A stretch of 44,322 nucleotides of DNA from a virus. Numbering within the stretch: position 1 is the stretch's first letter; the number at the start of each line of letters is the position of its first letter. The notes under the pieces were generated by a model, which was given only the letters and a program-made list of their open reading frames with translations, was not told the DNA's origin and made no database searches. The stretch spans positions 1-44,322 of IMG/VR virus record IMGVR_UViG_3300044712_002096, one strand, 5' to 3'. Below are positions 5,395 to 42,929 of this stretch, one piece after another. A program made the translations under genes and the position numbers.

Positions 5395-6414
5395 TTAGGA
5401 ATTTGATGGGCGAGATGCTTGCCTTTTTTTATGGTTAGTTTTCTGGTTGGTTGGGGGTCTCTCGATTGCGGTTTGAGGGTTTGGCACAAGTTGGGTCATG
5501 GGGGTTTGTTCTCGGCTGTCTTGGATGGTTAGGTCGAGCGCGAGCATCTTCTGGAAATTATTATTGAGCAGGCGTAACTCATAATTTGGCTTGGTGATGG
5601 AATTTTCAATATGAAATCCATACTGAATACGCTTGCATAATACTTGGTAGTCTACTACACATCGAGCGTCTCTTGCCCATTCTGCAATAGATTTCTTCTC
5701 ATTAAACGCAGTAATCGGCTTAATATCCAAGAGGGGTTGTGATATGGCCATTTCGGGGTTGTTGCGATATATTGTTCGGTTGTTCCGACTTCCCTTGCAG
5801 AATCGAGTTTTGAGTGTTTCATAATTCACGGCGCAACGCGGGTCTTCTGACCATTGTTTAACCGTTTTTTGTTCTCCCCAGGCGATGATTAATCTGGGTT
5901 TTATTGGCGGCTCAGTGCGTCGGCGTGGAATGAGAACGGCTTTACTGATGGCATCTTCGGGGGTGATGCCTGCTTTTAATCGTTCAGATAATTTAGTAGA
6001 ACTAACGACACATCGTTCATCGCGTGACCATTCTGTGATGGTCATAGTATCCCCGAAGGCCGTAATTTGAGTTCTGGGTTTTCGTTTCGGACGTGGTGTG
6101 AGTTTTTTCTTGGCGATAGCATCTTCGGGGGTAATACCTGCTTTTAATCGTGCATATAATGCGCTAGCCTTAATAGGGCATCGTTTGTCCTGTGCCCATT
6201 CTGAGATGGTTTTGGTGAGACCAAAGGCTGTGATCCTGACAAGTCGTTTGTCGTTTTGTTGAAAGGGTAGGTTGATTTTAGAAATGGCGTCTTCTGGCGA
6301 AATGTCCATTCGATTTAATCGTGCGTATAACGCGCCAGCATTGACAACACATCGTTTATCGCGTGACCATTCTGCGATGGTTTTAGTTTGACCGAAGGCA
6401 GTGATTTGACTCAT
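5395..6414 (-). CDS. Five-repeat putative DNA-binding protein
   Basis: A 339-residue protein made of five tandem copies of a module of about 42-50 residues at about 4-46, 61-102, 117-158, 176-226 and 234-275. The consensus is ITAFGxTKTIxEWxxDxRCxV, then a Leu-Arg-rich helix and a PEDAISK-like end. Similar single modules accompany phage homing endonucleases and look like small helix-turn-helix units; here no nuclease domain (no HNH or GIY-YIG) is visible. Linkers are rich in Lys, Arg and Pro. ATG 6414 is chosen because GGGGAG lies 8-13 nt upstream; the ATG at 6441 falls inside a perfect palindrome. Function is not known; sequence-specific DNA binding is an inference. Confidence 0.65.
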   Translation of the reverse strand: MSQITAFGQTKTIAEWSRDKRCVVNAGALYARLNRMDISPEDAISKINLPFQQNDKRLVRITAFGLTKTISEWAQDKRCPIKASALYARLKAGITPEDAIAKKKLTPRPKRKPRTQITAFGDTMTITEWSRDERCVVSSTKLSERLKAGITPEDAISKAVLIPRRRTEPPIKPRLIIAWGEQKTVKQWSEDPRCAVNYETLKTRFCKGSRNNRTIYRNNPEMAISQPLLDIKPITAFNEKKSIAEWARDARCVVDYQVLCKRIQYGFHIENSITKPNYELRLLNNNFQKMLALDLTIQDSREQTPMTQLVPNPQTAIERPPTNQKTNHKKRQASRPSNS

Positions 6415-6426
6415 GGTGATTTCTCC

Positions 6427-6455
6427 CCAAGCAGGGGTCATTGACCCCTGCTTGG
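6427..6455. promoter_or_regulatory. 29-bp near-perfect palindrome before the repeat-protein gene
   Basis: Arms 6427-6440 and 6442-6455 are perfect 14-bp inverted repeats around one base. On the minus strand the hairpin ends directly at the Shine-Dalgarno of the gene at 6414. It has no T-run, so it is more likely an operator or an mRNA structure that controls translation than a terminator. Confidence 0.6.
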
Positions 6456-9433: not shown

Positions 9434-10834
9434 CTAATTTCCCCAAATAATTGGGAGTCGTAATTTGGCGTGGTTGCGTAATTGGAAATAGGGGGTTTTT
9501 CGCAGGTTTTCGGGTAGCCACATGGCGATGAGTCCTGTTTTCCAGAGTGCGTAAGATACGCTGAGTTGGTCTCGGTGTGATCCTCGCATGAGTTCGGCGG
9601 CCCAGAGTTCTTCAAAGGCTTGGACGGCGGGGGTGTGTCGTCGGAGGATTACGCCTGTTTCGGGTAAGCCAAATGCGACTGGCATACCTTCCTTGGTATA
9701 CCGTCCCATTTGTTCATTCACGCATTCATTCTCATCCAATTTCATTGCTTTCACTGCTCTTGCTTCTTGGTAGACACATACTCGGCTGGGGTGGGGAAAG
9801 AAAGCGATATCTACGCCGTTTAAAAATCGTTGTAAAAGCGGCGCAGGATTTCCAATCGGTGTGATATTGCCATCACACCATATGCTGTATTCGTAATCAT
9901 ATTTGAATTGTGAACAGGCTTGAATTTTCATGAGTCGTTGTTTTTTGACTGTATCTACATGGTAATAGTGTGGGGTGATTTGTGGGTAATCGGGGAGTGG
10001 TTCGGGGGTATCGTAATTGTCGGTGGTGACGCAAGTATAGTAGGCGATTTTGGCTTGTTGGAATTCGGATCGATACATGCCTGTGAGTAGGTTGGGGTTG
10101 ATGGTGTTTAGATCACGAGAGAGTGATCGGTAATGAAAAATAAAACTGTCGAGACAAGTGGCGATTGTGCCACCGTTTGCCAGTAGTCTTGTTTGGTATT
10201 CGTCTTCATTGCCTACGAGTTTGAATGAGGGGTCAAAAAAGTGATTGTAATTGTAGGCGTGTTTACACCATTTGTCCCAACGTGCGAAGAGGAAGTAGCC
10301 TCCGATGCGTCCTTCAACTGTTTGTCCTGCAAATTGTTCGCTGACTGTTTTAGCGGTGGCGTGCGTGTCTTGGTCACGATCACTGAGGACGTAGTCGGGG
10401 AGGTAGGTGGTGACACGTTGTTGATCGTAGGAACCGCTGGCGTTGGTGATGGGGGCTACGAGATCGTATTGTTGGGCAGCTTTGATAAGGGGGATGTACC
10501 AATTGGGGGTGAATAGTATGTCGCTGTTGACAATGGCTACGTAGGCGTCGGGGTTTTCGCCATCTTCGAATTCACAGTCGATGAATTCTTGGCTTTGGGC
10601 TAACCCGTAGTTCCATAGCATGGTGAGGTCGCCTGTGTGGTTGAATGTTTCATATTGGATATTGTTGGGGGCGAGACTAATGATTTCGTCAATAAATTCT
10701 TCGGTGAGGTCGGGTGAACCGTCGTCTAGCCATGTGACAAAGAATTGGTCGGCGGGGGTGGTGTCGAGGAGGCTGTAAATGCATGCGCGGAAGGTGTCGA
10801 GTTGTCCGTAAGTGGGGATGATGATGTGGATCAT
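9434..10834 (-). CDS. Two-domain glycosyltransferase (GT2 plus DUF616-like)
   Basis: A 466-residue protein. The N-terminal domain (about 1-250) is a GT2 enzyme with IIIPTYGQLDTFRACIYSLL, WLDDGSPD and the metal-binding-type VNSDILF. The C-terminal domain (about 295-430) has SIWCDGN, then PHPSRVCVYQEARAVK, which matches the DUF616/TOD1-type glycosyltransferase-like family. ATG 10834 follows AAGGAAA and lies 11 nt after the GT4 gene; a longer upstream extension lacks a ribosome site. The enzyme could add two sugars in sequence, probably to a virion glycan; the acceptor is unknown. Confidence 0.8.
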   Translation of the reverse strand: MIHIIIPTYGQLDTFRACIYSLLDTTPADQFFVTWLDDGSPDLTEEFIDEIISLAPNNIQYETFNHTGDLTMLWNYGLAQSQEFIDCEFEDGENPDAYVAIVNSDILFTPNWYIPLIKAAQQYDLVAPITNASGSYDQQRVTTYLPDYVLSDRDQDTHATAKTVSEQFAGQTVEGRIGGYFLFARWDKWCKHAYNYNHFFDPSFKLVGNEDEYQTRLLANGGTIATCLDSFIFHYRSLSRDLNTINPNLLTGMYRSEFQQAKIAYYTCVTTDNYDTPEPLPDYPQITPHYYHVDTVKKQRLMKIQACSQFKYDYEYSIWCDGNITPIGNPAPLLQRFLNGVDIAFFPHPSRVCVYQEARAVKAMKLDENECVNEQMGRYTKEGMPVAFGLPETGVILRRHTPAVQAFEELWAAELMRGSHRDQLSVSYALWKTGLIAMWLPENLRKTPYFQLRNHAKLRLPIIWGN

Positions 10835-10844
10835 TTGGGTTTCC

Positions 10845-11840
10845 TTATGCGAGTTTGCTAATGAGGGTGAAGAATTCGAGCCAGATGTTTTTGGCGGGGC
10901 TTGACCATGACCATTTAGTTTTGATTTCGTGGTAAGCGTTAATGCCGACTTGTGGATCAATGTTATTAATTGTTTCTGTCCATGCTTCGGGGGTGTTTTC
11001 TATTAAGTATCCTGTGACTCCATGTTGGATGCTTTCTTTGTAGGGGGTTACGTTGCTGGCAAGGGTGGGAATGCCAAGGCAACTGTATTCGAGCCATTTT
11101 AAATTACTTTTGCAGGCATTAAAAAATGTGGCTTGGAGGGGTGCAAGTCCAGCGGTGAGGGCTAATTGGGGTACGAATAATTGGTAATGTTCTAGGGGTT
11201 GGGTGGGGAGGTAGCCAACATTTTTTAGGGTGGGGGCAATGTTTATGTGGTTGCTTCCTGGGTTCCTGTGATAGGTGGTTAGAGTTTCAGGGAGGCAACT
11301 GAAAAATAAAAATTCTTTATCGGGGTATTGGGCGGGGAGGTGTTGGATGATGGTGGCGTCGTCGTAATGGCTGTTTCCTGCGAGCCAACCGTATCTGGGT
11401 TTGGTGGGGATGGTGGGTGGTTCGTCGGGGGTGGTGACGAGGTTGGGTGCGATGAACGTTTTTTGAATGTGTCCGTAGGCGTATCCTAGGTGTGTGGTGG
11501 TGGCGAGAATGGCGGTGCTTAGTTCTAGACATTGTCGCATGACTTCGATTTCAGTGCGTCCGATGTGGTGATAATTGGGGTTGGTGGTCGGAAGGTCGAG
11601 CATGTAGTCGTCTACTGCCCAAATGATGGGCATGTGTTTGGCAAGTTGTTCTATGTTGCGGTAGTAATAGGGGTCAAGCATGCCGTGGAGGATTTGGATG
11701 TTGGCATGAGGATTGATGGTTTCTCCTGTGGTGATGTGGATATGGGGAAGTTCTTTGGAACAATGGGCAATGGGGTCGAGGATGCGGTATTTGTTGTAGG
11801 TGGGGTTATTGGCGGGGAGTTGGATGTGGATGTGTGTCAT
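10845..11840 (-). CDS. Glycosyltransferase family 4-like protein
   Basis: A 331-residue GT-B-type transferase. The C-terminal half has the family signature FNACKSNLKWLEYSCLGIPT, then ASNVTPYKESIQHGVTGYL, which form the nucleotide-sugar site with its conserved Glu. The N-terminal half is less typical but has WAVDDYMLDLP. It is followed by the GT2/DUF616-like gene, so the pair likely builds one glycan. Its start lies 68 nt from the divergent portal gene. Confidence 0.8.
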   Translation of the reverse strand: MTHIHIQLPANNPTYNKYRILDPIAHCSKELPHIHITTGETINPHANIQILHGMLDPYYYRNIEQLAKHMPIIWAVDDYMLDLPTTNPNYHHIGRTEIEVMRQCLELSTAILATTTHLGYAYGHIQKTFIAPNLVTTPDEPPTIPTKPRYGWLAGNSHYDDATIIQHLPAQYPDKEFLFFSCLPETLTTYHRNPGSNHINIAPTLKNVGYLPTQPLEHYQLFVPQLALTAGLAPLQATFFNACKSNLKWLEYSCLGIPTLASNVTPYKESIQHGVTGYLIENTPEAWTETINNIDPQVGINAYHEIKTKWSWSSPAKNIWLEFFTLISKLA

Positions 11841-11895: not shown

Positions 11896-11909
11896 TCTAA
11901 ATAGGGTTA
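11896..11909 (+). promoter_or_regulatory. T4-late-like promoter, leaderless (TCTAAATA-N5-ATG)
   Basis: TCTAAATA at 11896-11903 is followed by GGGTT and the ATG of the portal gene at 11909. This is the first rightward gene after a long leftward block, so a promoter is needed here. No -35 match lies at the usual distance. It is the same arrangement as at 137, 16386 and 23140. Confidence 0.68.
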
Positions 11910-13357
11910 TGGCTACACGTAAAGAAATTGCTGCTTCTCGTGCTCGTGGTGCGCGGGGAAGGTTTGTTAAATCAAGTGATAATCCTGTGGCGAAGTTTAA
12001 TCTTCCGTCAAATATTTTGCCTGACCCGGTTTTTTCACATCTGGCAACTTTCCAGGCGTTACCCCTCATCCCGACGAGGGTGTACAAAAATACAGATGAG
12101 GCATTACGCGCAGATCCAATTAACGCCAGAGCAATGCGTAGAGATACTTTTATTCTACGTCTTTTATTTTCTCGTCAAATGGCTGTGGCACAGTTGCCGT
12201 GGGATGTTGTGCCGGAAGACCCTCGTGATCCATTTCAAGTGTATGCGGCCAATTTTATAACGCGGATCATTGAGGATATTCCTCGGTTTGTGGAATATAA
12301 GCGAAATTTGTTGGAAGCCATTTGGACGGGACGTTCCATGATGGTGAATAATTTTGGATTTGATTGGGTGAATGGTTTGCGACGGATGGTGGTGAAGGAT
12401 TGGACGCCTGTGATGGGGGATAAGATTCAGTTTCGAATTGATTCGGATGAGGTTGGATATCTTGTTAATCCAGCGAAGCTATCGGGGGTGCGTCCGATGG
12501 AGATTTCTTATGATGGCCCGATTGAGATGTTTTCGGGTACGGATCGTAAGTGTGTCGTAGTGCATAAACATTTTATCATGGATGCGCATTATGCAGAAGG
12601 TGAATTTGCGGGTGGAATTCATGGTGTGGGATTACGGTCTTTTATTTATTGGGCGTGGTTGCATAAGCAGGAATTGCTCGCATGGGTGTTTAATGCGTTG
12701 GAGATGTTTAGTGCCGGTGGTTTAAAAGTCTATTACTTTGAGGCGGGTAATCCTGAATCTTATAATGCAGTGAAGGCGGTTGCTGAACAACAAACGCAAT
12801 CAAGCGTGCTGCTGTTTCCTCGTCCGATTGGGGTGGAGAAGCAGGGTCCGGGGTTGGAAATCATGGAGCCGAAGGGTGCTGGATTTGATATTTTTATGCA
12901 GTTGATTGATGAGTATTTTGACAAGCAAATCAGACAATTGATTATTGGGGAGTCGTCTGAGGATCATGGAAAGTCGGGTTTGGGTGGTATGGGCGAGGCG
13001 ACGGTGCGGAATGAGCAAACGTCGTTTCAACGGATTGTGCAGTATGATGCGGATAATTTGGCTGAGACGTTGAATCGGGATTTAGTGAGCGTGTTGCAAG
13101 CATATAATTTTCCCGGTTCTAAGTTTAGGTTGAAGTTGAAGTATAACTTGTTGAAGCCCGATCCGCAGAAGATGTTGGAAGCTGCTCAGCGCTTCTTTGA
13201 AATCGGAGGCTCTGTTAAGGAACGTGAGTTGCGTTCGTATATTGGTTTGTCTGAGCCTGAGCCGGGTGATGTGATTTTGAAGAAGGATATGTCGGCGGAT
13301 CAGACAATTAAACAGCCGCGTAAAAACATTGGTTCACTTGGGGAGCAATTATCATGA
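11909..13357 (+). CDS. Portal protein, Mu gp29-like (DUF935)
   Basis: A 482-residue protein of the Mu gp29/DUF935 portal type. Supporting segments are ADPINARAMRRDTFILRLLFSR near residue 65, DWVNGLRRMVVKDWTP in the stem region, and a C-terminal EQTSFQRIVQYDADNLAETL helix. It forms the dodecameric ring through which DNA enters the head. The start ATG 11909 (MATRKE) is preceded by the late octamer and AGGG. Its stop overlaps the protease gene start by 4 nt, as in other head operons. Confidence 0.85.
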   Translation: MATRKEIAASRARGARGRFVKSSDNPVAKFNLPSNILPDPVFSHLATFQALPLIPTRVYKNTDEALRADPINARAMRRDTFILRLLFSRQMAVAQLPWDVVPEDPRDPFQVYAANFITRIIEDIPRFVEYKRNLLEAIWTGRSMMVNNFGFDWVNGLRRMVVKDWTPVMGDKIQFRIDSDEVGYLVNPAKLSGVRPMEISYDGPIEMFSGTDRKCVVVHKHFIMDAHYAEGEFAGGIHGVGLRSFIYWAWLHKQELLAWVFNALEMFSAGGLKVYYFEAGNPESYNAVKAVAEQQTQSSVLLFPRPIGVEKQGPGLEIMEPKGAGFDIFMQLIDEYFDKQIRQLIIGESSEDHGKSGLGGMGEATVRNEQTSFQRIVQYDADNLAETLNRDLVSVLQAYNFPGSKFRLKLKYNLLKPDPQKMLEAAQRFFEIGGSVKERELRSYIGLSEPEPGDVILKKDMSADQTIKQPRKNIGSLGEQLS

Positions 13358-14781: not shown

Positions 14782-14810
14782 AGCTCGATTAAATGGTGAG
14801 CTTGTGCGTG

Positions 14811-14843
14811 CAGCCAAGGCGAATAACCGCCTTGGCTGTTTTT
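14811..14843 (+). terminator. Rho-independent terminator
   Basis: A stem of 14811-14821 with 14828-14838 (11 bp, perfect) and a 6-nt loop is followed by five T. It ends the portal/protease unit. A late-type octamer starts 28 bp later. Confidence 0.85.
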
Positions 14844-14871: not shown

Positions 14872-14885
14872 GCTAAATAATTTCG
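14872..14885 (+). promoter_or_regulatory. T4-late-like promoter with leader (GCTAAATA)
   Basis: GCTAAATA (14872-14879, 7/8 to TCTAAATA) lies just after a terminator and upstream of the capsid genes. With N5 spacing the start would be 14885, which gives a 32-nt leader carrying the strong ribosome site AAGGAG before ATG 14917. Confidence 0.5.
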
Positions 14886-14916: not shown

Positions 14917-15309
14917 ATGAGCAACGCGCCTGCATTGTCGTTGTTTGCCACTGGAACTATCGAGCCTTCAAGGTTTGTGACGCTCTCTGCTGCCAGTGAT
15001 TTTTACTGTGCGCAAAGCGGTTCTGGTGATAAACCTCTTGGTGTTAGCCAAGAGTATTCTCGTCTTACCCCGCTCCCCGGTGCAGCCACGTATGCTGCAA
15101 CGAGTGGTCAAGAAGTTGGGGTTTATACCGTGGGTCAAGTCTGTTATTTGACCTGTGGCACTGCCATCACTCACGGTGATTTCTTGAAGCCTGATGCGAA
15201 CGGTAAAGCTCTGAATGCCGGTTCCACTGATAAGTACGGGGCGGTAGCTCTGGAAAGTGGTTCGGATGGTAGCTTGATCCGTGTCCAAGTGAGAGAGGGG
15301 GCTGTCTAA
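14917..15309 (+). CDS. Head decoration/stabilisation protein
   Basis: A 130-residue beta-rich protein directly before the major capsid gene, overlapping it by one base (TAATG). Position, size and the Gly/Ala/Ser-rich sequence (ATYAATSGQEVGVYTVGQVCYLTCGTAI is part of it, in shorter pieces) match DUF2190-like capsid decoration proteins. It probably sits on the outside of the head shell. The ribosome site AAGGAG lies 12 nt upstream of ATG 14917. High expression is expected. Confidence 0.7.
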   Translation: MSNAPALSLFATGTIEPSRFVTLSAASDFYCAQSGSGDKPLGVSQEYSRLTPLPGAATYAATSGQEVGVYTVGQVCYLTCGTAITHGDFLKPDANGKALNAGSTDKYGAVALESGSDGSLIRVQVREGAV

Positions 15310-16316: not shown

Positions 16317-16344
16317 TGATTTGTTTTTTAATTCCTTGCTTAGA

Positions 16345-16375
16345 AGGGGAGACCATTCGTGGTTTCCCCTTTTTT
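16345..16375 (+). terminator. Rho-independent terminator
   Basis: A 10-bp stem (16345-16354 with 16361-16370, one wobble) and a 6-nt loop are followed by T-rich sequence to 16375. It ends the capsid unit, and the late octamer for the next gene begins 11 bp later. Confidence 0.85.
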
Positions 16376-16385
16376 GTTTAATTCG

Positions 16386-16399
16386 TCTAAATAGAAGTA
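16386..16399 (+). promoter_or_regulatory. T4-late-like promoter, leaderless (TCTAAATA-N5-ATG)
   Basis: TCTAAATA at 16386-16393 is followed by GAAGT and ATG 16399. Because the capsid-unit terminator ends at 16375, transcription of the next gene needs a new start here, which supports promoter function. No room exists for a -35 box other than the terminator itself. Confidence 0.7.
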
Positions 16400-16893
16400 T
16401 GGCATATGCAACTGGTTCAGATATCGCTTCTCGTTATGACGTGAGGTTATTAGGTGACTTGTGTACGGATGGAGGCGACCGTATTAGTGACCTAGCTACG
16501 TTAATCGTGCATCCTAATGTGGTTCAAGCATTGGAGGATGCGAGTGGAATGATTAATTCTGCCGCGCTAGTCGGGCATCGTTATAATGCTACGGATTTAC
16601 AAGATATGACTGGCGAAGGTGCGGCATTTTTGAAACGTATTACCTGTGATTTAGCGTTTGCGTTTCTTCGTCAAAGGCGTGGTTATGATCTTGACCAGTA
16701 TCCAACTGTGCAAGAATCTTTTCGATTTTTAGATCGATTACGGTTAGGAGAACGGGTGTTTGATATTGAAGCCAATGAAACAGCGGGCAATCCTGGCGTC
16801 TATGAAATTCCTACTTACGTGGTGTTTCAACAACCGTTATTAACAAACAATTCCCGCTATTGGCCTACTAAACGCTTTCCTTGGGCGGGATAA
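16399..16893 (+). CDS. Head-tail connector, Mu gp36-like (DUF1320)
   Basis: A 164-residue protein starting MAYATGSDIASRYDVRLLGD, the typical start of the DUF1320/Mu gp36 family, with a helical middle (FLKRITCDLAFAFLRQRRGY). These proteins close the portal channel or join head and tail. ATG 16399 is chosen because it begins the family N-terminus and follows the late octamer; an upstream in-frame ATG at 16321 would run through the terminator. Confidence 0.78.
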   Translation: MAYATGSDIASRYDVRLLGDLCTDGGDRISDLATLIVHPNVVQALEDASGMINSAALVGHRYNATDLQDMTGEGAAFLKRITCDLAFAFLRQRRGYDLDQYPTVQESFRFLDRLRLGERVFDIEANETAGNPGVYEIPTYVVFQQPLLTNNSRYWPTKRFPWAG

Positions 16894-17155: not shown

Positions 17156-17733
17156 TGAGTTTTAGCATACCTGCTGGCATTACAAATTGGTCTGAAAAAT
17201 TGGCATATTGTGTTACCGCGCAAGAAAAATTGCGACTAGACCATAATCAACATGGCGAAAAATATCGTAATGGTGAAATAACTCCTACTGAATGGGAAAC
17301 GTATAAGACGACTGTTTTCGAACCGCTGAGTGTGGAAATTGGGGTAGCTCAATGTCAATTAATTGATGCAAAACAGGATTATCCAACGGTGGATTTAGCC
17401 TGGATTACTGCGGAGGGAGTAATTCTTCCGACCAATTTAACTTGGGCTGAGGAGTTGGGATATTGTTACGCTTTGCTGGGACAGGATATTACTTTGGAGC
17501 AAAGATCGATTGTGGGCTCTCATCCCAGTATGGTGAGCATTCCTCAGGATGCATTAGATGCGGTCACATTGTTTACAACTCAAGCCTTATCCCAGCAAGC
17601 ATTCCTCGTGTTGAAGGACGGGTCACGGGTGCCAATCACGATGGAAGTGGAGTCGACGAATTACAGTGATGGGAGAGTTGATAAGAAAATCATTGTGCCT
17701 ACTCTAAATACTGGCGTAGCTACAAATAATTAA
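17155..17733 (+). CDS. Hypothetical structural-region protein, 192 aa
   Basis: A protein of unknown function within the head-to-tail region. The N-terminal half is helical (WSEKLAYCVTAQEKLRLDHN; NGEITPTEWETYKT); the C-terminal half is mixed and ends with beta-rich sequence. Position suggests a neck or head-completion protein or a virion accessory. Its stop codon is followed by the ribosome site of the next gene. A late-type octamer (17703) lies in its last codons. Confidence 0.5.
   Translation: MSFSIPAGITNWSEKLAYCVTAQEKLRLDHNQHGEKYRNGEITPTEWETYKTTVFEPLSVEIGVAQCQLIDAKQDYPTVDLAWITAEGVILPTNLTWAEELGYCYALLGQDITLEQRSIVGSHPSMVSIPQDALDAVTLFTTQALSQQAFLVLKDGSRVPITMEVESTNYSDGRVDKKIIVPTLNTGVATNN
17703..17716 (+). 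promoter_or_regulatory. T4-late-like promoter with leader (TCTAAATA)
   Basis: An exact TCTAAATA at 17703-17710 inside the end of the upstream gene. A start at 17716 would give a 29-nt leader with AGAGG before ATG 17745. It suggests extra expression of the 134-residue gene that follows. Confidence 0.5.
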
Positions 17734-17744
17734 GAGGTAAAAAT

Positions 17745-18149
17745 ATGGCTTCTGGAACTTACAATGCTTGGCGCACTGAAATCATGAAGAAAACCATCGA
17801 TATGGTTAACGATACGATTAAATGCGCGTTGTATAACAATTCATTTTCGTTCGATACGACTTTGGCGGCTTATTCCACTACGAATGAGTTGGCCACATCT
17901 GGCGGGTATACGCAGGGTGGTGCGACTTTGGCGAATAAGTCGGTGACTTCTGCTACGGCTGCGAAATTCGATGCAGACGACGTAAGTTGGACCTCGGCAA
18001 CATTTAGTGCTTATTTCGCCTTACTGTACGACGACACGACTGCTACGAAGTATCCGATTGCGTGTATTGATTTTGGCGGGGTGCAGACGGTGACTGGTGG
18101 TACGTTTACTATCCAATGGAGCGCGAACGGCATTATCACGATTTCTTAG
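17745..18149 (+). CDS. Putative virion protein, 134 aa
   Basis: A compact beta-rich protein (segments SFDTTLAAYSTTNELATSG and GGYTQGGATLANKSVTSA). Proteins with this EL-x-SGGYTxGGxTL pattern recur among phage structural genes, probably as small decoration or fibre-base subunits. It has its own upstream octamer, a good ribosome site (AAGAGG) and a strong terminator afterwards, which suggests high and independent late expression. The exact virion location is not known. Confidence 0.6.
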   Translation: MASGTYNAWRTEIMKKTIDMVNDTIKCALYNNSFSFDTTLAAYSTTNELATSGGYTQGGATLANKSVTSATAAKFDADDVSWTSATFSAYFALLYDDTTATKYPIACIDFGGVQTVTGGTFTIQWSANGIITIS

Positions 18150-18187
18150 AGTTAGAACTGAAAGTTTCAGGTTTGCCATTAATTGAG

Positions 18188-18217
18188 GCTGCCACTAAAT
18201 AGAGTGGCAGCTTTTTT
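18188..18217 (+). terminator. Terminator hairpin enclosing a late-type octamer
   Basis: A perfect 9-bp stem (18188-18196 with 18203-18211), a 6-nt loop and six T. The loop and flanks contain ACTAAATA (18194-18201, 7/8 to TCTAAATA). A start at 18207 would give a 23-nt leader with GGGGTG before ATG 18230. The site could end one late transcript and start the next. Confidence 0.75.
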
Positions 18218-18229
18218 ATTGGGGTGCGT

Positions 18230-19112: not shown

Positions 19113-22100
19113 ATGGCTTATAATTATACAAGTTTTACCGAAGTTGATCCGAATGGTCATGCTTCAGTTTCTAGTACCGAGATTGAGTTTGAGTATGCTA
19201 ATAATGAGTCGGCTTATGTGTACTTGGATTTGACCAGTATCAATAATTTTCATTTTCGGTTTGCGGCGCATTGTGATGATGTGGCTTCTGGTTCGAATGC
19301 TTATTTGTTAACCGTGAGTGATGATTTAGGAGATCATAATACGCTTTGGTCGGGAGCAAATGATGCAATTAGTGTGGGGTATGGTTACACGAGCACATCT
19401 GGTAAGGCTTATATTCATTTCGCAGCATTACAAAACACCGCTTCGTATTTGGATGAGGTGGATTTAGGTACTGAATATTATTTCGATGTGAAGCGGGTCG
19501 ATGATAATTGTGTGTTGCGTGTGTATTCGGATTCGTCTTACACGACGGAAGTATTCAATCGCACGATTACTGGTTGTTCGGGTAAATCATATCGGTATTT
19601 GATTGTAGCATCTTCGAACGGATCAACTGGGACGGCGGTGACGCATGGGCATATGGCGGCGTTGACAGGTTACAAGGAAGTGTTCCCAACAGTAGTGACG
19701 GCCTCGTGTGCTTATCCCCAGTGGCAATTTCTGAATTTACCCACGTTTACGGAGAATGATCCTTCGAATGTAATGACGGTGGGGACTTTTGATGCGCTAG
19801 TGTCGTTCACAAATAGCACGGCGAAGCATCGTTTGTATAAAGATTATGGGGCGGGAGCATTAGAGAATTGGTCGTATAATTTTACGGCGAATGTTATCAG
19901 TATGGGAGGGAACTATAAGTATGTTTTAGTTTGGTCAGTGAGTAATGATTCTGATCCTGGGTCGGGTGGTTATCCAACTCAACCATGCGGAGCGTTCCCG
20001 TATCAACAATCAGCGTCTTCACATGGTTGGTATTTGTCTTGTGGTGGAGGCGATTATTTGAATTCGGGGGGTCGTTCGCATGGAACTCCTGAATATTTTA
20101 CCATTGCTAAGTCTGGCACTACGGTTACTTTGAAACGGTATGCCGATGAGGCCCGTACCAATTTAACATTTACCATCACGGGCGCGGATACAGCAGGACG
20201 TAAACATCGTTACCTATTTGTTAATCGTGATTACAACTACGATTATTCAGGTTCATATACAGCCACGGTGAGCAAGGTTGATGATGGGCGGACATTAATC
20301 ACTTTTACTGATGTAGTGTCGGTTAATCCAACTGTGTTGAGCGTGTCGGCTAGTGTGCAAACTCCTACTATCAACATTACGAATACAGTGGTAGTGACTC
20401 CAGATGTATTGAATTGTAGTGTTGCTTTGCCTCGTTATTCTTACTTTGATTATACGAGTTTTACCGAGTATGATTTGGCAAATCGTTTAACTGTTACAAG
20501 CAATGGTTTCACTTTAACGGAGGGACACTTAAACGAAAGATGGAGGATTTATAAAGATTATAATTCCAACGTTATAGGTAATTTTCATTATTTATTTGAT
20601 TGGAAAAGAACGGCTCAGTCAGGAACTTTTGCATATTGGATGCCGTTTGGTTTATTTGATTTTGCCGACCCAAATACTAGTACGTTCACCTCGTATCGTA
20701 TCAACTTAATGCATGGTGATCGATTATACACTTATGTTAACGGCGACTTGCTTTGGACGAATACGCCTGCCAATAATGAGTCCACTTATTGGACAGTTAT
20801 CAAGTCAAGTAATACCGTAACATGGTATTGGTATACTGATGCAGCGCGGACTAATCTTAAAGAAACTCGGACACAAACGGATGTTAGCGGTCAAAAATAC
20901 TCACAATTATTTCCTTGCATAGAAGTTTATGATGCGGCTCATCCCACTTGGTATGTCAGCGGTCAAGGTGGAAATTTAAGTTATATTGATAGTGACTATG
21001 TAATTGTCAATAATCCCGCGACTCTCGCCCCTTCTGCCACACTTCATGCTCCTACTGTCGTTATCAATAACCCAGGCGTAACTTATGAAGCTAGTGTCAT
21101 TAATGCAACAGCAGCCATTGTAACCCCAATCCCCAAAGTCATAATTAATACTACCGTCATTGGGCTCAATGGTAATGATCTTACATTAATTGGCACATTC
21201 ACAGGCACAAGTAAGACCAGCACTGGGGTTAGTTTCACGGATGCTGCGGCAACTCCTCGTGGCTATTATTATGCCTCCCAATATTCCAGTCGCTACACGC
21301 CTAATGATGCGGTCAAATTTCGGGGTCATTTAGATTTCACCGCGAACGGAACAGGTGATTACAACTTTGTATTCTGGGCGCTAAAAAACAATGCTACTAA
21401 TGCTTACATTCAATTCTTTGCTGGATTAGATGATACGACTCCCGCAATCATGGTGAATGCGGCGAACCCTACGGTGACCGACCACGTCATTGTCAGTAAT
21501 CCGTCCCAAGAAATTTGGTATGAGATAATTATTGAGGCGAGTGGTTATACTTTTAATGTTTACTCAGATGCAATTAGAAACACCCTGTTAGGTACGTATT
21601 ACACAGATTACCCCCATACGAATCCAACTTGGGTCTTAGCTGATAATCAAAATTACGGTACGAGAACATTCACAGGTGTTCACGATGAAATTGAAATCGT
21701 GCAGTATGCTCTTGTCAATGCCAAAGCGTTGCAACCGACAAACTCTTTATTGGTAACAACTGATGTTACGACATTAGATGTCATTGCTGAAACATTAGCT
21801 TCATCCCCCACAGTCATTACAAGTCCTGACACATTACCAGTGAATACGGAACTGTGTCGCGCCTGTTTCCCCGACACGATCAATGTTACCTGTAATGTGC
21901 ATGCTCCCACGATTAACACAAGCGGGAGTATTACTGTAACGCCCAATGTCGTTAATGTTTCAACAACTAATGAGACATCAACACCATTGGTGATTGCCCC
22001 GGCCATTTATCAGCCCACTTACCTCCCTGATTACACTTTAAATGATGCCGGATCAAACCTTACCGTAACCGATTATGGTGTAAGTGGCACAGCTATACGC

Positions 22101-23144
22101 AACGCTGTAAGTCAACTCTATCACGACTTTGGAGCGAACGGGGTAAGAGACTTTACACTCACGTTTAAATGTTCTGTTAGTGGTAATCCTAATGACGGCG
22201 GCATTGCTCCCATGCTTTTCGCCAACAATACAAATAACTCTTACAATCAATCCCAAGGCTTGCACTGTATTCGCCCCAGTCTAATGCGAACCAACAGTGG
22301 CCAATGGTATGTGCATCTTGTTGCCCCCAATGTTGGAACCGCTGTGAGTCAAGTCATTAGCGCCAATACGAATTATTGGGTAAAGGTGAATCGAACTGGA
22401 ACCACATTAACTTTGGATGTTTACAGCGACCAAGGAATGCAAACCCAAGTCGGAACGCAAAAAACAACTACTTGCCAAACTGAAAACTTCCGTTACTTCT
22501 TCCCCTTTAATTCCTACCAAGATAATGTTGCGAATGTAGATTTCGCTTTTAATTTTGATGATGTGCGATTGATTACCCCCGTGTATGTGACTGCCACGGT
22601 AGAAACATCGGTAACAAGCGTAACAGTTACCCCCGACACGTTAACTGCCACAGCCACGGTACATGCCCCCAGTGTGGGCCAAAACATCGTTGTCACCCCC
22701 GACACACTCACTGCCACAGCCACCGTAGCCTCCCCAATCATCCAGATTAGCGTCAGTGGACATGTGAACGCAAATACGAGTGTAATGTCGCCTACCCCAC
22801 ACGTAGCGATCCAGCCTGATCCTGTGAGTGTTACCGTAGTCGTAGAAACTCCCCAAGCCCGCCTGATCTATCAACCGGGGTCACTCACAATACAGACTCT
22901 CGTGGAAACCCCCACTCCACATGTGATTTACCCGCCCGATCCGATAGACGTGCGAGCGGATTTGCAGCGGGCTGTGTATCCCCAAGTATTGCCTGTTGTA
23001 GCGGAATTACAGCCTCCAATACCCCAAGTAATTTGGAATACGACTACGTTGTCCGCTTTAACGGCAGTCCTTGCGCCCGTCGTGGATATCAAGGAGGGGA
23101 AGGCTGATTGGTATTACCGCATGATTAATACGGGAGGTTTCTAA
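19113..23144 (+). CDS. Giant repetitive tail adhesin, 1343 aa
   Basis: A large protein of about four to five LamG-like beta-sandwich domains (opening YNYTSFTEVDPNG at residue 3 and again DYTSFTEYDLANR near 450, with related copies near 700 and 960). The domains are separated by short repeats of the type VTPDTLTATATVHAPSV, which dominate the C-terminus (about 1150-1330). Such modules bind carbohydrate or protein in other families; here host-surface binding is an inference. The first half of the gene is T/G-rich and the second half (after about 21000) is A/C-rich, an abrupt change within one gene. Confidence 0.6.
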   Translation: MAYNYTSFTEVDPNGHASVSSTEIEFEYANNESAYVYLDLTSINNFHFRFAAHCDDVASGSNAYLLTVSDDLGDHNTLWSGANDAISVGYGYTSTSGKAYIHFAALQNTASYLDEVDLGTEYYFDVKRVDDNCVLRVYSDSSYTTEVFNRTITGCSGKSYRYLIVASSNGSTGTAVTHGHMAALTGYKEVFPTVVTASCAYPQWQFLNLPTFTENDPSNVMTVGTFDALVSFTNSTAKHRLYKDYGAGALENWSYNFTANVISMGGNYKYVLVWSVSNDSDPGSGGYPTQPCGAFPYQQSASSHGWYLSCGGGDYLNSGGRSHGTPEYFTIAKSGTTVTLKRYADEARTNLTFTITGADTAGRKHRYLFVNRDYNYDYSGSYTATVSKVDDGRTLITFTDVVSVNPTVLSVSASVQTPTINITNTVVVTPDVLNCSVALPRYSYFDYTSFTEYDLANRLTVTSNGFTLTEGHLNERWRIYKDYNSNVIGNFHYLFDWKRTAQSGTFAYWMPFGLFDFADPNTSTFTSYRINLMHGDRLYTYVNGDLLWTNTPANNESTYWTVIKSSNTVTWYWYTDAARTNLKETRTQTDVSGQKYSQLFPCIEVYDAAHPTWYVSGQGGNLSYIDSDYVIVNNPATLAPSATLHAPTVVINNPGVTYEASVINATAAIVTPIPKVIINTTVIGLNGNDLTLIGTFTGTSKTSTGVSFTDAAATPRGYYYASQYSSRYTPNDAVKFRGHLDFTANGTGDYNFVFWALKNNATNAYIQFFAGLDDTTPAIMVNAANPTVTDHVIVSNPSQEIWYEIIIEASGYTFNVYSDAIRNTLLGTYYTDYPHTNPTWVLADNQNYGTRTFTGVHDEIEIVQYALVNAKALQPTNSLLVTTDVTTLDVIAETLASSPTVITSPDTLPVNTELCRACFPDTINVTCNVHAPTINTSGSITVTPNVVNVSTTNETSTPLVIAPAIYQPTYLPDYTLNDAGSNLTVTDYGVSGTAIRNAVSQLYHDFGANGVRDFTLTFKCSVSGNPNDGGIAPMLFANNTNNSYNQSQGLHCIRPSLMRTNSGQWYVHLVAPNVGTAVSQVISANTNYWVKVNRTGTTLTLDVYSDQGMQTQVGTQKTTTCQTENFRYFFPFNSYQDNVANVDFAFNFDDVRLITPVYVTATVETSVTSVTVTPDTLTATATVHAPSVGQNIVVTPDTLTATATVASPIIQISVSGHVNANTSVMSPTPHVAIQPDPVSVTVVVETPQARLIYQPGSLTIQTLVETPTPHVIYPPDPIDVRADLQRAVYPQVLPVVAELQPPIPQVIWNTTTLSALTAVLAPVVDIKEGKADWYYRMINTGGF

Positions 23145-23153
23145 ATACAAGTA
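23140..23153 (+). promoter_or_regulatory. T4-late-like promoter, leaderless (TCTAAATA-N5-ATG)
   Basis: TCTAAATA at 23140-23147 overlaps the stop codon of the giant adhesin gene and is followed by CAAGT and ATG 23153. It is the fourth case of the octamer at exactly 5 nt from an ATG. There is no ribosome site better than AAG. Confidence 0.66.
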
Positions 23154-23968
23154 TGCTCAAACCTATTAATAATACGATCACCGTGGTACTTGGCCCAATT
23201 ATTAACGATACGGATTTTAAAACTCGTGTCACGAACTTAGCGTGGGATGCGCCAGGACTAACGCTTAATTTAATTCGAGAGAATAGCGACGATCAAAGCA
23301 TTACCCAAGTGAGTCTTACCCCCACCGTCACGACTTGGGCTCATGTTGCTAATGGGTATTATGAACTCACCATCCCCGACACGGTTAACGATGCGGGTGG
23401 CATTATCCATGCTGTTGGGTATGCCACGGGTGTCCTTCCGTTTCGCAGTGTGGTTTATAGTATCGTGCCTGAAAATGTTTACGCAGACATTATGGACACG
23501 GGGGTCTTATCATGGCTGCGAAATATGATTCAAGCCATTGGGTTGAATTATCAATTTACGGCAACGGCGTTAGCACAGGCTGCTGCTAGTGGTGTGCAAG
23601 TCTTGCCGTTAAGCGTGACGGTGGGGGTGGGGCAGGTATCCAGTTTTGAATGGGTGGCGTGGCAATATGCAGGATTTGCATTTGGCCCGATGGTGATTAC
23701 GGATGCGCTAGGTTCGCCCATTGATTTACAAGGAAAAACTCTCACGTTTATCGCTTATAAACAAGATAATACGACGGTTGATTTTTCGTTGAGTGGGGCG
23801 AATATCACGATCAGTGGGGCTTCTCATAATCAGGTAACGATTACTTCGGACGATACATATACAGGGACGGCAAGGGATCTGAAATGGGCTTTACGAAATG
23901 ACACGGATGACACGGTGTTAGCACGCGGGACACTATCGATTAAACCTGTGCCGGATACGCCCACGTAA
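23153..23968 (+). CDS. Putative tail/baseplate protein, 271 aa
   Basis: A two-part beta-rich protein. The first 130 residues include TWAHVANGYYELTIPD, and the second part (about 160-270) begins SSFEWVAWQYAGFAFGPMVITD and continues with a domain containing DLQGKTLTFIAYKQDNTTVDF, similar to immunoglobulin-like or BppU-like domains of phage appendages. The position between adhesin and tail tube genes suggests a virion appendage. It has the leaderless promoter arrangement. Confidence 0.5.
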   Translation: MLKPINNTITVVLGPIINDTDFKTRVTNLAWDAPGLTLNLIRENSDDQSITQVSLTPTVTTWAHVANGYYELTIPDTVNDAGGIIHAVGYATGVLPFRSVVYSIVPENVYADIMDTGVLSWLRNMIQAIGLNYQFTATALAQAAASGVQVLPLSVTVGVGQVSSFEWVAWQYAGFAFGPMVITDALGSPIDLQGKTLTFIAYKQDNTTVDFSLSGANITISGASHNQVTITSDDTYTGTARDLKWALRNDTDDTVLARGTLSIKPVPDTPT

Positions 23969-33301: not shown

Positions 33302-34258
33302 TCACGCAATAAAACCATTGAGAATCCGCTCAATGGTCAAACACACTTCCTGTGCTGTAATAAGCGACATGCACTTCGCCACGGGGTAAGGGTGATTCAC
33401 AAATACAGGATTACGACACAACTCGTTATCCTTTTTATCCCCATCATTCAACGGCACTGCCCTCGATAACCAGCAGCCATGACCATGCATACACCGCATT
33501 GGGCCAGCGTGCAACAAATGAGTCGTGTGATAATTATTCATCCACATGGCGGGCTCTCTGCCTCCCCCAATACACACGTAAGCCCGATCAAACGCCGCGC
33601 ACAAATGATTCAATCCCGTGATCGGCCCCAACCCACCCTCACAATGCGACACCAACCGAATCAACTGTCGCACATCCGTCTGGTCAATCAAATTAATTGC
33701 ACCCTTTAAAGGCACATGCATATCCTTGCTTTGACCAATCTGCACAAACTGCACACGCCCCGCAAAATGATCCACCACCTGCTGATAATACGGCCACTGT
33801 TTTATCGTATAATCATTCTTCGATCCTGCCGATATCAACCAATACCGAGTCTTACACTTCGTGAAATGTTGCTCGATCATGCTGACCCACGATTTCTCTT
33901 CCTCACTCAAATAAATGTAAGGACGATTCACTTGCATCTCTAACGGAATATTCAACGTCTTCGCCAAATGGTCACAATAACCATTCAAAAATGTCACATT
34001 ACGCTGATTCGATTGATTCACCGTAGGATAATGACATTCAACAAGTCTCACCCCATCTGGCAAAACCGTATCCTCTGATTTCGATTGATAAGGAACAATA
34101 CTGGCTATATGAGGATTATGTTGCCAAATTGAATCGCAAGTTGTAGAAATATGCGTTTCATACTTACCTGGAAATTGACGATGAAGACTCTCAACTGTAG
34201 CCGTAAGCACAGTGATATCCCCCAATGAGAGCCCTGATCGTAAACAAATCTTTTCCAC
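33302..34258 (-). CDS. Glycosyltransferase, GT9/heptosyltransferase-like
   Basis: A 318-residue GT-B-type protein. The start VEKICLRSGLSLGDITVLTA has the typical GT9 N-terminal loop; LISAGSKNDYTIKQWPYYQQ and the later CEGGLGPITGLNHLCAAF match the donor-binding half with its Gly-rich turn. GTG 34258 is chosen because GGAGGTGG precedes it and its G is shared with the stop of the upstream GT71 gene; ATG 34288 would add ten residues without family similarity. It is the terminal gene of a two-gene leftward unit. Confidence 0.75.
   Translation of the reverse strand: MEKICLRSGLSLGDITVLTATVESLHRQFPGKYETHISTTCDSIWQHNPHIASIVPYQSKSEDTVLPDGVRLVECHYPTVNQSNQRNVTFLNGYCDHLAKTLNIPLEMQVNRPYIYLSEEEKSWVSMIEQHFTKCKTRYWLISAGSKNDYTIKQWPYYQQVVDHFAGRVQFVQIGQSKDMHVPLKGAINLIDQTDVRQLIRLVSHCEGGLGPITGLNHLCAAFDRAYVCIGGGREPAMWMNNYHTTHLLHAGPMRCMHGHGCWLSRAVPLNDGDKKDNELCRNPVFVNHPYPVAKCMSLITAQEVCLTIERILNGFIA
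33308..33337 (-). terminator. Leftward terminator overlapping a gene end
   Basis: A perfect 9-bp stem (33314-33322 with 33329-33337) with a 6-nt loop is followed on the minus strand by TTTTATT. It lies in the last codons of the leftward glycosyltransferase gene and would also separate it from the rightward fibre gene. Confidence 0.6.
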
Positions 34259-35406
34259 TAAACCACCTCCACCAACACAATAGGACACTTCTCATAATTC
34301 AACCAACGCCCCACCCATATCCTCGACTCATTCACCGTCCGCACACACACAAAAGATAACGCCCCATCATCCCCCACGACATACAACGCCTCCCCCGACT
34401 TATACCAAAACCGCTCCCGACCCGCAGGATTCTCACTAATCACCCCTCGCGCCCCCAACGTCAACGGTCTCGAATCCAACCCCAACCGATAATACATAAA
34501 CCGCTTCCCCACCCACTCATCCCCCGGCTCACTCGATCCCAACCACGCACCCCGCAAATCCTCCACAAACCGCAACAAAACATCCTCATGCGTAAACCCA
34601 GGCAACCTCGGATTATCCCCATACAACTGAAACTTAGCCAAATTGCGATGCAACCACAAACGCTCCCCCTGCAAATCATACTGCACCAAACACGCAATCC
34701 CGCACCCCTCCAAATGATGCACAGGGGTACTCGTCATCGCAAACTTCCGCCCCGTCACATGAAACGCCGCATTCCAGCTATCCTTATCCCCATGCATCCC
34801 CGCTTCCCGCCAATAAAACGCAATCCCATGCTCATTAATGTAATCCGCAATACACACTTCCCGCCAACACCGCGACTTATCAATAAAAATCGCGCCTGAC
34901 TCAAACTCGTCTTCCTCCACATACGGAATTTGAAACAACCCCCAAAACTTATGCGTGCTCGGCATCTTTCGCACGTCAGGCATAAAAATTGCGCCATGCT
35001 CCTTAAACGCCTCCTCCTCAAAAATCGGCTCAGGATTCCTAATAGCGAAACAATCCGCATCGATAAACAACACTTCCTGAAACGGACACCACTTAATCGC
35101 ATACGACTTCAACTCCCAACCATTCAAATGGGAGTGAGGATGTTCCTTCAATACATCCTCCGCATTCACACACGTCACATTAAACTGTTGTACCAACTCA
35201 TTAAACACGTCATCATGCTCATGCGGCAAATACCATAATTGAATCGGTAACGTACACCCTAATTTTCGTAACAACCGAATATTCGCGTAAGCATTCGTAT
35301 TGTACTTCACCCCGCCAGCGCAAATCACAATTCCACGACCACTCATCACCGGCAGCGGAACATTTAAATCATCTAGAACTTTTCTGGCATTCTCTCGTGA
35401 TAGCAT
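34258..35406 (-). CDS. GT71/MNN1-like mannosyltransferase
   Basis: A 382-residue protein. GIVICAGGVKYNTNAYANIR (residues 25-44), LPIQLWYLPHEHD, GWELKSYAIK and LFIDADCF (D116-x-D118) are the main motifs of the alpha-mannosyltransferase family that includes yeast Mnn1. D-A-D should bind the metal and nucleotide sugar. About 120 C-terminal residues extend beyond the catalytic core. ATG 35406 has AGAGG upstream. It overlaps the GT9-like gene by one base and is divergent from the sigma factor gene, with only 29 bp between the starts. Confidence 0.78.
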   Translation of the reverse strand: MLSRENARKVLDDLNVPLPVMSGRGIVICAGGVKYNTNAYANIRLLRKLGCTLPIQLWYLPHEHDDVFNELVQQFNVTCVNAEDVLKEHPHSHLNGWELKSYAIKWCPFQEVLFIDADCFAIRNPEPIFEEEAFKEHGAIFMPDVRKMPSTHKFWGLFQIPYVEEDEFESGAIFIDKSRCWREVCIADYINEHGIAFYWREAGMHGDKDSWNAAFHVTGRKFAMTSTPVHHLEGCGIACLVQYDLQGERLWLHRNLAKFQLYGDNPRLPGFTHEDVLLRFVEDLRGAWLGSSEPGDEWVGKRFMYYRLGLDSRPLTLGARGVISENPAGRERFWYKSGEALYVVGDDGALSFVCVRTVNESRIWVGRWLNYEKCPIVLVEVV

Positions 35407-35435: not shown

Positions 35436-35801
35436 ATGAGTAACGGACATTATGTAACCACAGAACAATTACGCACCGCCCTCCAAGATTACAAAAACAC
35501 GGGCACCATCAGCCCCCGTTTAACCCAATACTTACAAGCCATCGCCCAAGGAGTCGCCAGCAAATACGGCCACGACAACTCCGACGACGCCATCCAAGAA
35601 ACCTGGATACTCTTTTTAAGACACCTAGACAAAGTTAAAATTGACAAACACCCCTTCAATTATTTAACTACCATCGCCCACAACGCTTGCCGCCATGCTC
35701 ACCGCAAACACGCCAACACCACCCGCATGATGTACGACTACTTCACCACCCGCGCCACCCAAGGAGACTGCCCCCAAACCGACCAACGCAGCTTCGACTA
35801 A
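35436..35801 (+). CDS. T4 gp55-like late sigma factor
   Basis: A 121-residue protein whose N-terminal layout follows T4 gp55: a YVTTEQLRTALQDYKNTGTI start, IAQGVASKYG, then NSDDAIQETWILFLRHLD and HPFNYLTTIAHNACRHAHRK (residues 48-91), which is sigma region 2. It is shorter than T4 gp55 (185 residues), with only about 30 residues after region 2 and no evident region 4. Such sigma factors direct RNA polymerase to an AT-rich -10 octamer without a -35 box, which fits the TCTAAATA sites before the structural genes. It has no Shine-Dalgarno, so it might itself be leaderless. I saw no sliding-clamp gene to activate it. Confidence 0.75.
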   Translation: MSNGHYVTTEQLRTALQDYKNTGTISPRLTQYLQAIAQGVASKYGHDNSDDAIQETWILFLRHLDKVKIDKHPFNYLTTIAHNACRHAHRKHANTTRMMYDYFTTRATQGDCPQTDQRSFD

Positions 35802-35833: not shown

Positions 35834-36352
35834 ACTCACTATTACGCAACAGTAAATAAATATACCAACACAATAGATTAACCCATATTACCCCACCTCA
35901 CCATAAGCTCACTCCATTTCACTCATGCTTAACATAAGCTCACTCCACTTTACACATACAAGACGCAACTTCATTCCACCTTACTCCTAACTAAAATTTA
36001 CCATACTGCTTACATCAGGCTGCCTTACTGCTTACATCAGGCTGCCTTACCGTAAATGACTATACTTATTACACTACAACACCCGACTTAAAATCACTTA
36101 ACTTTACAAACACGGCAATGTAATTCACGGTACTTCACACATACAGTACACTCCCTCTTTCTATACTTTACTAACACCTTAACGTGAAAACACCTTACTG
36201 TGGCATGACAAGAATACACAGCACTATACGCACACCCTAGTAGACCCAACTTTACACACACAGTACATCAAATCACCATCACCCTAAAGTAACGTACTCT
36301 ACCCTCACCCTAGCTTAACATACTTTACCATTAACTGGGCACAACCTCTTAA
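35834..36352. other. Repeat-rich non-coding region, 519 bp
   Basis: No gene is credible here. Seen: a perfect 22-bp tandem duplication (36004-36047); a 15-bp direct repeat CATAAGCTCACTCCA at 35902 and 35933; ACTTTAC five times (35947, 36101, 36165, 36249, 36322); the decamer CTTACCGTAA at 36046, identical to one in the operators at 8543. If transcribed leftward it would form a long 3' RNA ended by the terminator at 35803. It may be a cluster of protein-binding sites, a ncRNA or a packaging/replication site. Confidence 0.6.
36004..36047. repeat. Perfect 22-bp tandem duplication
   Basis: Two adjacent identical units beginning TACTGCTTACATCAGG occupy 36004-36025 and 36026-36047. The 22-bp period is close to two helical turns, as expected for a doubled protein site. 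CTTACCGTAA follows at once. Confidence 0.9.
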
Positions 36353-37376: not shown

Positions 37377-38249
37377 ATGTTCGAATCTCTCAAAAAGGCA
37401 AAAGCCCAACACGAAACCCCCAACTTCTTGGAGAATTTCGTCACCTTCCCCAAAGAAGGCGCAATCATCATCCGCATCCTCCCCAGCACACAAGGGCAGG
37501 ACTTCTTCTCCGCAACCCGCACCCACAAAATCAACGGCAAAAACATCCACTGTCCCAAGACACACGATGAAACCACCAACAAATGGGTCGGCAAATGCCC
37601 CGTCTGCGACTACATCGCACCCCTCTGGCGACAATCCGAAAAAGCCAGCAGCGACGAAGAACGCGAACGACTCCAAACCGAATACCGCAACCTAAAATGC
37701 CACCCACGCTTCTACGCCAACTGCATCATCCGCAGCGAAACCGACCTCAAAACAGGCGAAACACGCACCAACGTCGGACCCAAAATCATCAGCATGAGCA
37801 AACAACTATTCGACCTCATCTGCGATGCAATATTAGCCGACCCCCTCAACCCCGATGACGTAACCGACCTCAAAACCGGCAAAGACTTCGTCATCACCGT
37901 CAACCGAAAAGGCGAATGGCCCGATTTCACCAAATCCAAATTCGCACCCAAATCCACCCCCGCAGGAACCAAAGACGAAGTCACCACCTGGATGAACAAC
38001 CTCCACGACATCCACGGGTTACGAAAAGTCATGACCACCGAAGAGTTGGAAAAAGAAATCCGCATTATGCTCGGGGAAGAAAAGGAAACGGAAACGCCCA
38101 TTCGCTTGGCCGACCCGAATCCTCCCATTCCCCCCGTCAATCATGGCGCAATGCAAGTCGGTAGCAGCAGCATCACCAGCAACGGCACGGAAGGACTAGC
38201 CGACGACGACTTCCTTGCCGAACTCAACAAGGCTGGATTTAACAATTAA
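37377..38249 (+). CDS. T4 gp32-like single-stranded DNA-binding protein
   Basis: A 290-residue protein. The N-terminal OB-fold region contains IIIRILPSTQGQDFF and a zinc site H50, C59, C74, C77 (KCPVCDY), the same His-Cys-Cys-Cys order and final Cys-x2-Cys as T4 gp32 (His64, Cys77, Cys87, Cys90). The C-terminus GLADDDFLAELNKAGF is the acidic tail that usually contacts replication partners. It should coat ssDNA during replication and probably works with the PrimPol-helicase encoded next. Confidence 0.82.
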   Translation: MFESLKKAKAQHETPNFLENFVTFPKEGAIIIRILPSTQGQDFFSATRTHKINGKNIHCPKTHDETTNKWVGKCPVCDYIAPLWRQSEKASSDEERERLQTEYRNLKCHPRFYANCIIRSETDLKTGETRTNVGPKIISMSKQLFDLICDAILADPLNPDDVTDLKTGKDFVITVNRKGEWPDFTKSKFAPKSTPAGTKDEVTTWMNNLHDIHGLRKVMTTEELEKEIRIMLGEEKETETPIRLADPNPPIPPVNHGAMQVGSSSITSNGTEGLADDDFLAELNKAGFNN

Positions 38250-42873: not shown

Positions 42874-42929
42874 CGTCCCTGGATTTCCGTCCCTGAATTT
42901 CCGTCCCTGAATTTTCGTCCCTGAATTTT
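42874..42929. repeat. Four tandem 14-bp repeats
   Basis: Units starting CGTCCCTGAATTT lie at 42874, 42888, 42902 and 42916 with 14-bp period; the first has one change (GGATTT for GAATTT) and the last base alternates C and T. They fill the gap between convergent genes ending at 42871 and 42935. The period is not a multiple of three, so this is not coding. Confidence 0.92.

Follow-up and report, generated by a model that had tools for sequence, protein, structure and literature searches.

The late transcription system of bacteriophage T4, which comprises the sigma factor gp55, gp33 and the gp45 clamp and uses the promoter TATAAATA, has hitherto been regarded as a speciality of the T4 family, a restriction described as puzzling in a 2010 review (PMC2988020). 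Proteins of the gp55 type carry segment 1, a conserved N-terminal stretch with two aromatic residues 13 apart (Tyr10 and Trp23 in T4) that is not found in sigma70 (PMC2988020). In Aeromonas phage Aeh1 the late promoter is CTAAATA, beginning at –12 (PMC1524935; PMC2988020), and the geometry published for T4 and Aeh1 leaves five bases between the promoter word and the transcription start, a placement called N5 below (PMC1524935). The late promoter of phiKZ is TATG (PMC5312081), and its mRNAs therefore also begin at or next to an AUG. In a study of pelagimyophages, late-promoter prediction failed (PMC7029224).

Here, we describe a locus in an uncultured virus of bacteria in which a short gp55-like protein is found together with late-promoter words standing directly before start codons. 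The window, that is the whole 44,322-nt stretch analysed, is a complete-looking viral genome of circular type, with a 127-bp exact terminal repeat that leaves 44,195 unique bp, and a GC content of 47.6%. T4-like phages (Straboviridae/Kyanoviridae) are recognised by the T4 core genome and a size above about 100 kb; this phage is not one of them, because it has 44,195 bp, a circular-type record and a Mu-type portal, and no gp45 or gp33 was found by profile search in the window. The term siphovirus, used in the earlier note, is an inference. No close relatives were found: tblastn with the sigma against 50,697 phage records and megablast of 14 kb of late genes returned none, and IMG/VR peptide scans with the sigma, portal, primase and capsid candidate recovered no relative of the phage, while the scan with TerL gave one weak relative. 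Other features of the window are an HNH-like protein with three internal repeats of roughly 57 residues each (5395-6441, – strand), two – strand blocks (9434-11840 and 33302-35406) holding four predicted glycosyltransferase genes, none preceded by a late-type octamer, and a 14-bp tandem repeat, CGTCCCTGAATTTC, at 42874-42928.

The sigma factor of the 44-kb phage

The gene at 35436-35801 (+ strand) encodes a protein of 121 residues, P0001, which combines gp55 segment 1 (residues 5-21) with sigma domain 2 (about 27-95) and which, judged from its sequence, is a reduced gp55-family sigma factor. The sigma domain is recognised by Pfam Sigma70_r2 with an E value of 6.7e-9, above Pfam's cut-off, and the match to the late sigma family phrog_234 is weak (E 0.014, or 0.0011 when this genome is searched alone). 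Alignment by hhalign to 13 gp55 proteins, drawn from T4, Aeh1, cyanophages, HTVC008M, Cr30, phiM12 and IMG/VR contigs, is colinear over residues 3-87, with a probability of 94.6% and an E value of 6.8e-8, and the gp55 profile score of P0001 is 19 bits, the best of 5000 shuffles reaching 10.2. Its N-terminal HYVTTEQLRTALQDYKN, which belongs to the part of gp55 that has no counterpart in sigma70, aligns to HYVNNKELLAALIDYRA in P-SSM2 and scores 20 bits on the segment-1 profile; the only one of 1629 other ORFs to equal or exceed this value is a gp55, and none of 20000 shuffles did so. The two aromatic residues of the segment (HYV..DYK) are Tyr6 and Tyr19, 13 apart, and the closest homologue is an environmental gp55, L285, at 32.6 bits.

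A search of PDB sequences by phmmer gave nothing meaningful, and a single-sequence AlphaFold model (pLDDT 72), compared with the PDB by Foldseek, had as its best hit by probability sigmaE region 2 bound to –10 DNA (0.99, with an E value of only 0.13); against a viral structure library the model matched phage sigma factors (best E 6.6e-4). The earlier description of this ORF as a gp55-like N-terminus joined to sigma region 2 is thus upheld by the domain match, the hhalign comparison and the segment-1 score, and a profile comparison with gp55, of the kind that the earlier note had proposed, came out in its favour.

The protein stops after domain 2 and has no segment 3 (about residues 141-156 in T4), and it is therefore classed with the gp55 family as a reduced or derived form rather than as a full gp55; the gp55 subfamily of the environmental contig G019 likewise diverges at segment 3. 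No clear hydrophobic/acidic sliding-clamp epitope is seen in its C-terminal tail (...QTDQRSFD). Profile searches of the window with the T4-type clamp (PF02916, gp45) and gp33 (PF16805) found no match; the same profiles recover the genes of T4 and HTVC008M, the HTVC008M clamp only weakly. Classification as an ECF sigma factor, which would have domains 2 and 4, was rejected, as the 121 residues hold no region 4 and the N-terminus is of the gp55 type.

Just 3' of the sigma gene lies about 480 bp of AT-rich non-coding DNA (35860-36340) with short imperfect repeats (CATAAGCTCACTCCA, CTTACATCAGGCTGCCTTAC), a candidate replication origin. A second T4-type gene nearby (37377-38249, + strand) encodes a gp32-like single-stranded DNA binding protein (Pfam gp32, E 1.6e-15); it adjoins a primase-helicase gene, and its nearest phage relative, at 31% identity, is in LR756511, an uncultured phage of 595 kb that also encodes gp55-like proteins. 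Since this gene adjoins the sigma and has its best relative in a phage with gp55-like proteins and [AC]TAAATA-N5-ATG genes, the T4-type genes may have been acquired together, which we offer as a lead.

Placement of the octamers and their target genes

The octamer TCTARATA stands exactly five bases before an ATG at four places on the + strand, as the earlier note had reported, and at no other place in the window. The copy at 137-144 (TCTAGATA) precedes the ATG at 150, and copies of TCTAAATA at 11896-11903, 16386-16393 and 23140-23147 precede those at 11909, 16399 and 23153; each is a predicted late promoter with a predicted leaderless product. The first target (150-671) is an HTH protein, probably the small terminase subunit (phrog_309, E 0.0011), which also matches a DNA invertase family (phrog_125, E 6e-5). 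The portal protein (11909-13357; Pfam Portal_Mu, E 4.4e-33) and a Mu Gp36-like head-tail connector (16399-16893; phrog_195, E 5.9e-9; PF07030, E 1e-4) are clear, and the connector profile aligns from residue 3, which supports the ATG at 16399. The fourth protein (23153-23968), in the tail-gene region, matched nothing in the databases, and no in-frame start precedes its ATG; we infer from position only that it is structural. All four had been called packaging or structural genes, which is clear for two, plausible for the terminase candidate and positional for the last.

Two further sites that the earlier note does not list, and perhaps a third, have the same word at a distance, with predicted leaders of 17-32 nt. 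The octamer TCTAAATA at 17703-17710 lies 42 bp 5' of the ATG at 17745 with the Shine-Dalgarno AAGAGG between them (predicted leader 29 nt), a promoter-like arrangement, and is followed by a phrog_644 protein without assigned function (17745-18149, E 7.5e-24). The predicted promoter GCTAAATA at 14872-14879 comes after a terminator at 14810-14839 and would give a 32-nt leader with the Shine-Dalgarno AAGGAG before the ATG at 14917, where a head protein is encoded (14917-15309; phrog_673, 'head scaffolding', E 8.1e-20). A possible promoter, ACTAAATA at 18194-18201, precedes a gene starting at 18224 or 18230; it is uncertain because the word lies within the loop of a predicted intrinsic terminator (18185-18214). 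All three are on the + strand, with their heptamers at 14873, 17704 and 18195.

That these words are mere coincidence might be argued from the small number of sites and from the choice of the word after the fact, for which reason a de novo test was adopted. The earlier estimate of 0.002 chance occurrences has the correct order of magnitude for a word chosen beforehand; in the de novo test, for which sets of 47 upstream regions were simulated, any identical octamer at an identical offset before three genes appeared in one set of 2000, a count that takes in three of the sites and does not include the fourth, the G variant. The window holds six octamers, five of them on the + strand, against 1.4 expected, and six were reached in one of 100 shuffles. 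The core CTARATA is present in ten copies, of which nine are on the + strand, and seven of the nine fall in the 60 bp ahead of a + strand gene start, positions that make up 4.3% of the total (binomial 9.5e-9, about 1e-8); other permutations of CTAAATA fell upstream of + strand genes in only 42 of 325 cases. With two mismatches allowed, the motif shows no excess (12 found, 17.6 expected), and the signal therefore resides in the exact words. A chance origin is, on these figures, scarcely credible.

A constant distance to the ATG at four genes could also be expected of a translation-initiation signal, or of some other start-associated DNA motif that is not a promoter. Against this, at 17704 and 14873 the word and the ATG are 41-44 bp apart and a Shine-Dalgarno lies in the interval, and most other genes of the phage have a normal Shine-Dalgarno. 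A predicted terminator directly precedes the heptamers at 14873 and 16387 (the latter terminator at 16342-16373), and a strand switch precedes those at 11897 and, across the circular join, 138; where two of the four N5 genes had been said to follow a terminator or a strand switch, three do so (11909, 16399 and 150). With such positions, and with Shine-Dalgarno leaders at some sites, the words behave like promoters rather than translation signals; moreover, the word is that of an established late promoter and accompanies gp55 genes in other phages. We consider a translation signal very improbable indeed.

The form of the sites is, as had been suggested, that of a T4-type late promoter, (T)(A/C)TAAATA from –13 to –6 with no –35 element, here in the Aeh1 version CTAAATA. 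At 150, 11909, 16399 and 23153, CTARATA starts exactly 12 bases ahead of the A in the start codon and, since the Aeh1 word begins at –12, the predicted +1 at these genes is that A. No Shine-Dalgarno is found at a usable distance for 150, 11909 and 16399.

Some bacterial phyla have many leaderless genes with a –10 element just 5' of the ATG, and the sites might thus be read by a host sigma factor in a host of this kind, the phage sigma having another role. Every site, however, has T and not A at position –11, which speaks against a sigma70 –10 element, no shared –35 box is seen among the sites on inspection, most genes here have a Shine-Dalgarno, and the word tracks gp55 across phages; this reading is accordingly very improbable. 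A scan for sigma70 promoters in the first 20 kb of the window gave no excess over shuffles.

Late words and gp55 genes in environmental phages

The link between word and sigma was approached from both sides. An IMG/VR scan for TCTAAATANNNNTATGGC had among the matches listed three related T4-type contigs (G002, G032 and G033) with CTAAATA before ATG ORFs. In G002, 20 of 25 CTARATA words stand before ATG ORFs, six of them at N5; G002 and G032 encode a clear gp55 (E about 1e-61), and downstream genes in the group include tail-fibre-like proteins. A further contig sharing one motif word, G034, was taken as a chance match, having no gp55 match and few other sites.

In the reverse test, the degenerate sigma peptide PF-x-Y-[LF]-TTIA selected 119 contigs by sigma sequence alone, most of which encode the gp55 subfamily that includes the closest homologues of P0001 (L285, whose gene has T4-like neighbours). 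With no motif presupposed, the strongest start-aligned heptamer in these partly redundant contigs was ATAAATA at –12 (35 against 1.5 expected), and CTAAATA at –12 was also among the top words (15 against 0.37). Across 23 whole records MTAAATA-N5-ATG occurs 166 times, compared with 16 for the reversed control, and a single 236-kb record accounts for 46 against 2. The motif search in other phages recommended in the earlier note thus finds the late word at the same distance from the ATG in contigs chosen by the sigma. Structural annotation was obtained for only one of ten tested downstream leaderless proteins of the 119-contig set, most such genes being unannotated. Predicted leaderless products of L264, L268, L274, L276, L309 and other contigs of this subfamily often begin MKFxxxxxxxYxLLEQ, which may be a shared N-terminal signal.

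Two further genomes have the same arrangement. In the pelagimyophage HTVC008M (KC465899; L205-L213), ATAAATA or CTAAATA stands exactly five bases before late structural ATGs, for example at 18943, 19456 and 31132, and the spacings between word and ATG peak sharply at N5 (12 of 28), where the genes that follow encode head-completion, baseplate and DNA-end-protector proteins. The 595-kb LR756511 encodes two gp55-like proteins (192 and 126 aa) and has [AC]TAAATA-N5-ATG genes (L185-L195); these are small, and their products start with MxTFxEW/F-like sequences (MLTFTEWLE, MHTFNEFML, MKTFKDWMQ) reminiscent of T4 capsid-targeting signals.

It could be that this sigma uses the octamers as late promoters with +1 a few bases off, or that translation of the four genes also proceeds on read-through mRNAs with an upstream Shine-Dalgarno, truly leaderless mRNAs being minor. 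A late promoter can initiate at more than one position, and in the gp55-subfamily contigs ATAAATA stands also at N6 (30 against 66 at N5); the published T4/Aeh1 geometry, however, puts +1 at N5, and N5 is found in four of four genes here and as a sharp peak in unrelated phages. At 23153, a GGGAGG is found 16-21 bases before the ATG, and the octamer overlaps the stop codon of the preceding gene (19113-23144), so that coupled translation from a read-through mRNA is possible there, but 16399 and 11909 have no usable Shine-Dalgarno. We regard this reading, in either form, as rather unlikely.

The best explanation, and one we hold to be quite probable from the sequences compared, is that a minimal gp55-type sigma reads the octamers and serves four leaderless and two or three leadered genes. 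Composed of domain 2 and the gp55 N-terminal segment, it would bind the host core RNA polymerase and recognise the single element TCTARATA (–13 to –6, no –35) before transcription units presumably expressed late. At 150, 11909, 16399 and 23153, +1 would be the A of the start codon, and the mRNAs, beginning 5'-AUG, would have to be translated in the leaderless manner; the copies of the element at 14873, 17704 and perhaps 18195 would give rise to mRNAs with an ordinary Shine-Dalgarno leader. The proposal that late mRNAs of this phage are leaderless is therefore narrowed to the four genes at which the geometry places +1 on the ATG. We are evenly divided on a wider claim, namely that a clamp-independent, gp33-free gp55 of 121 aa is enough to govern the late regulon of a small phage that is not related to T4, that promoter placement alone makes part of this regulon leaderless, and that the same placement is widespread and overlooked in environmental T4-related phages, including pelagimyophages.

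Comparison with known late transcription systems

No description of leaderless gp55-type late promoters was found in the open-access literature. Such promoters had been thought new in a small siphovirus; the placement itself recurs in T4-related contigs and in HTVC008M, and what sets this case apart is that the gp55-type system belongs to a small phage outside the T4 group, in which the sigma is truncated and no clamp could be identified. A tblastn search with environmental gp55 matched 1829 phage records, and all 60 records sampled evenly down the ranking were of at least 100 kb; the occurrence of a gp55 in a phage of 44 kb outside the T4 group therefore seems to be new. Such a reduced gp55 would provide a natural test of what the protein achieves by itself. 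Were the late mRNAs leaderless, the late sigma would also set the mode of translation initiation, and the phage mRNAs could avoid competition for Shine-Dalgarno-dependent initiation. The rule [AC]TAAATA-N5-ATG could serve the annotation of late genes and start codons in many uncultured phages, including the pelagimyophages, for which leaderless placement may be part of the reason that late-promoter prediction failed.

The multisubunit non-virion polymerases encoded by phiKZ and AR9 work with no gp55-type sigma, and AR9 leaders of 26-491 nt are unlike the leaderless sites predicted here. With T4, the 44-kb phage has in common the sigma family, a single –13 to –6 element without a –35 box, and head, tail and packaging targets. 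It differs in its small genome and Mu-like head genes, in a sigma of 121 aa (185 aa in T4) without segment 3 or clamp-binding tail, and in the gp45 and gp33 that T4 has and that were not found here; T4, moreover, has no TATAAATA at N5, and all its late sites have leaders. In Aeh1, the heptamer CTAAATA and the predicted distance to +1 match those of the 44-kb phage, whereas its sites carry leaders, mostly with 18-28 bases from word to ATG, and one N5 site has a long ORF; no N5 peak is seen in T4, Aeh1, Syn9 or S-PM2, whose sites have leaders. The nearest parallels are HTVC008M and the environmental T4-related phages (G002/G032 and G019/L285), which have a gp55, include the closest homologues of P0001 and place the word at N5 before the ATG, but which have T4-related genomes, mostly ATAAATA rather than CTAAATA, and a gp55 with the full domain-2 insert.
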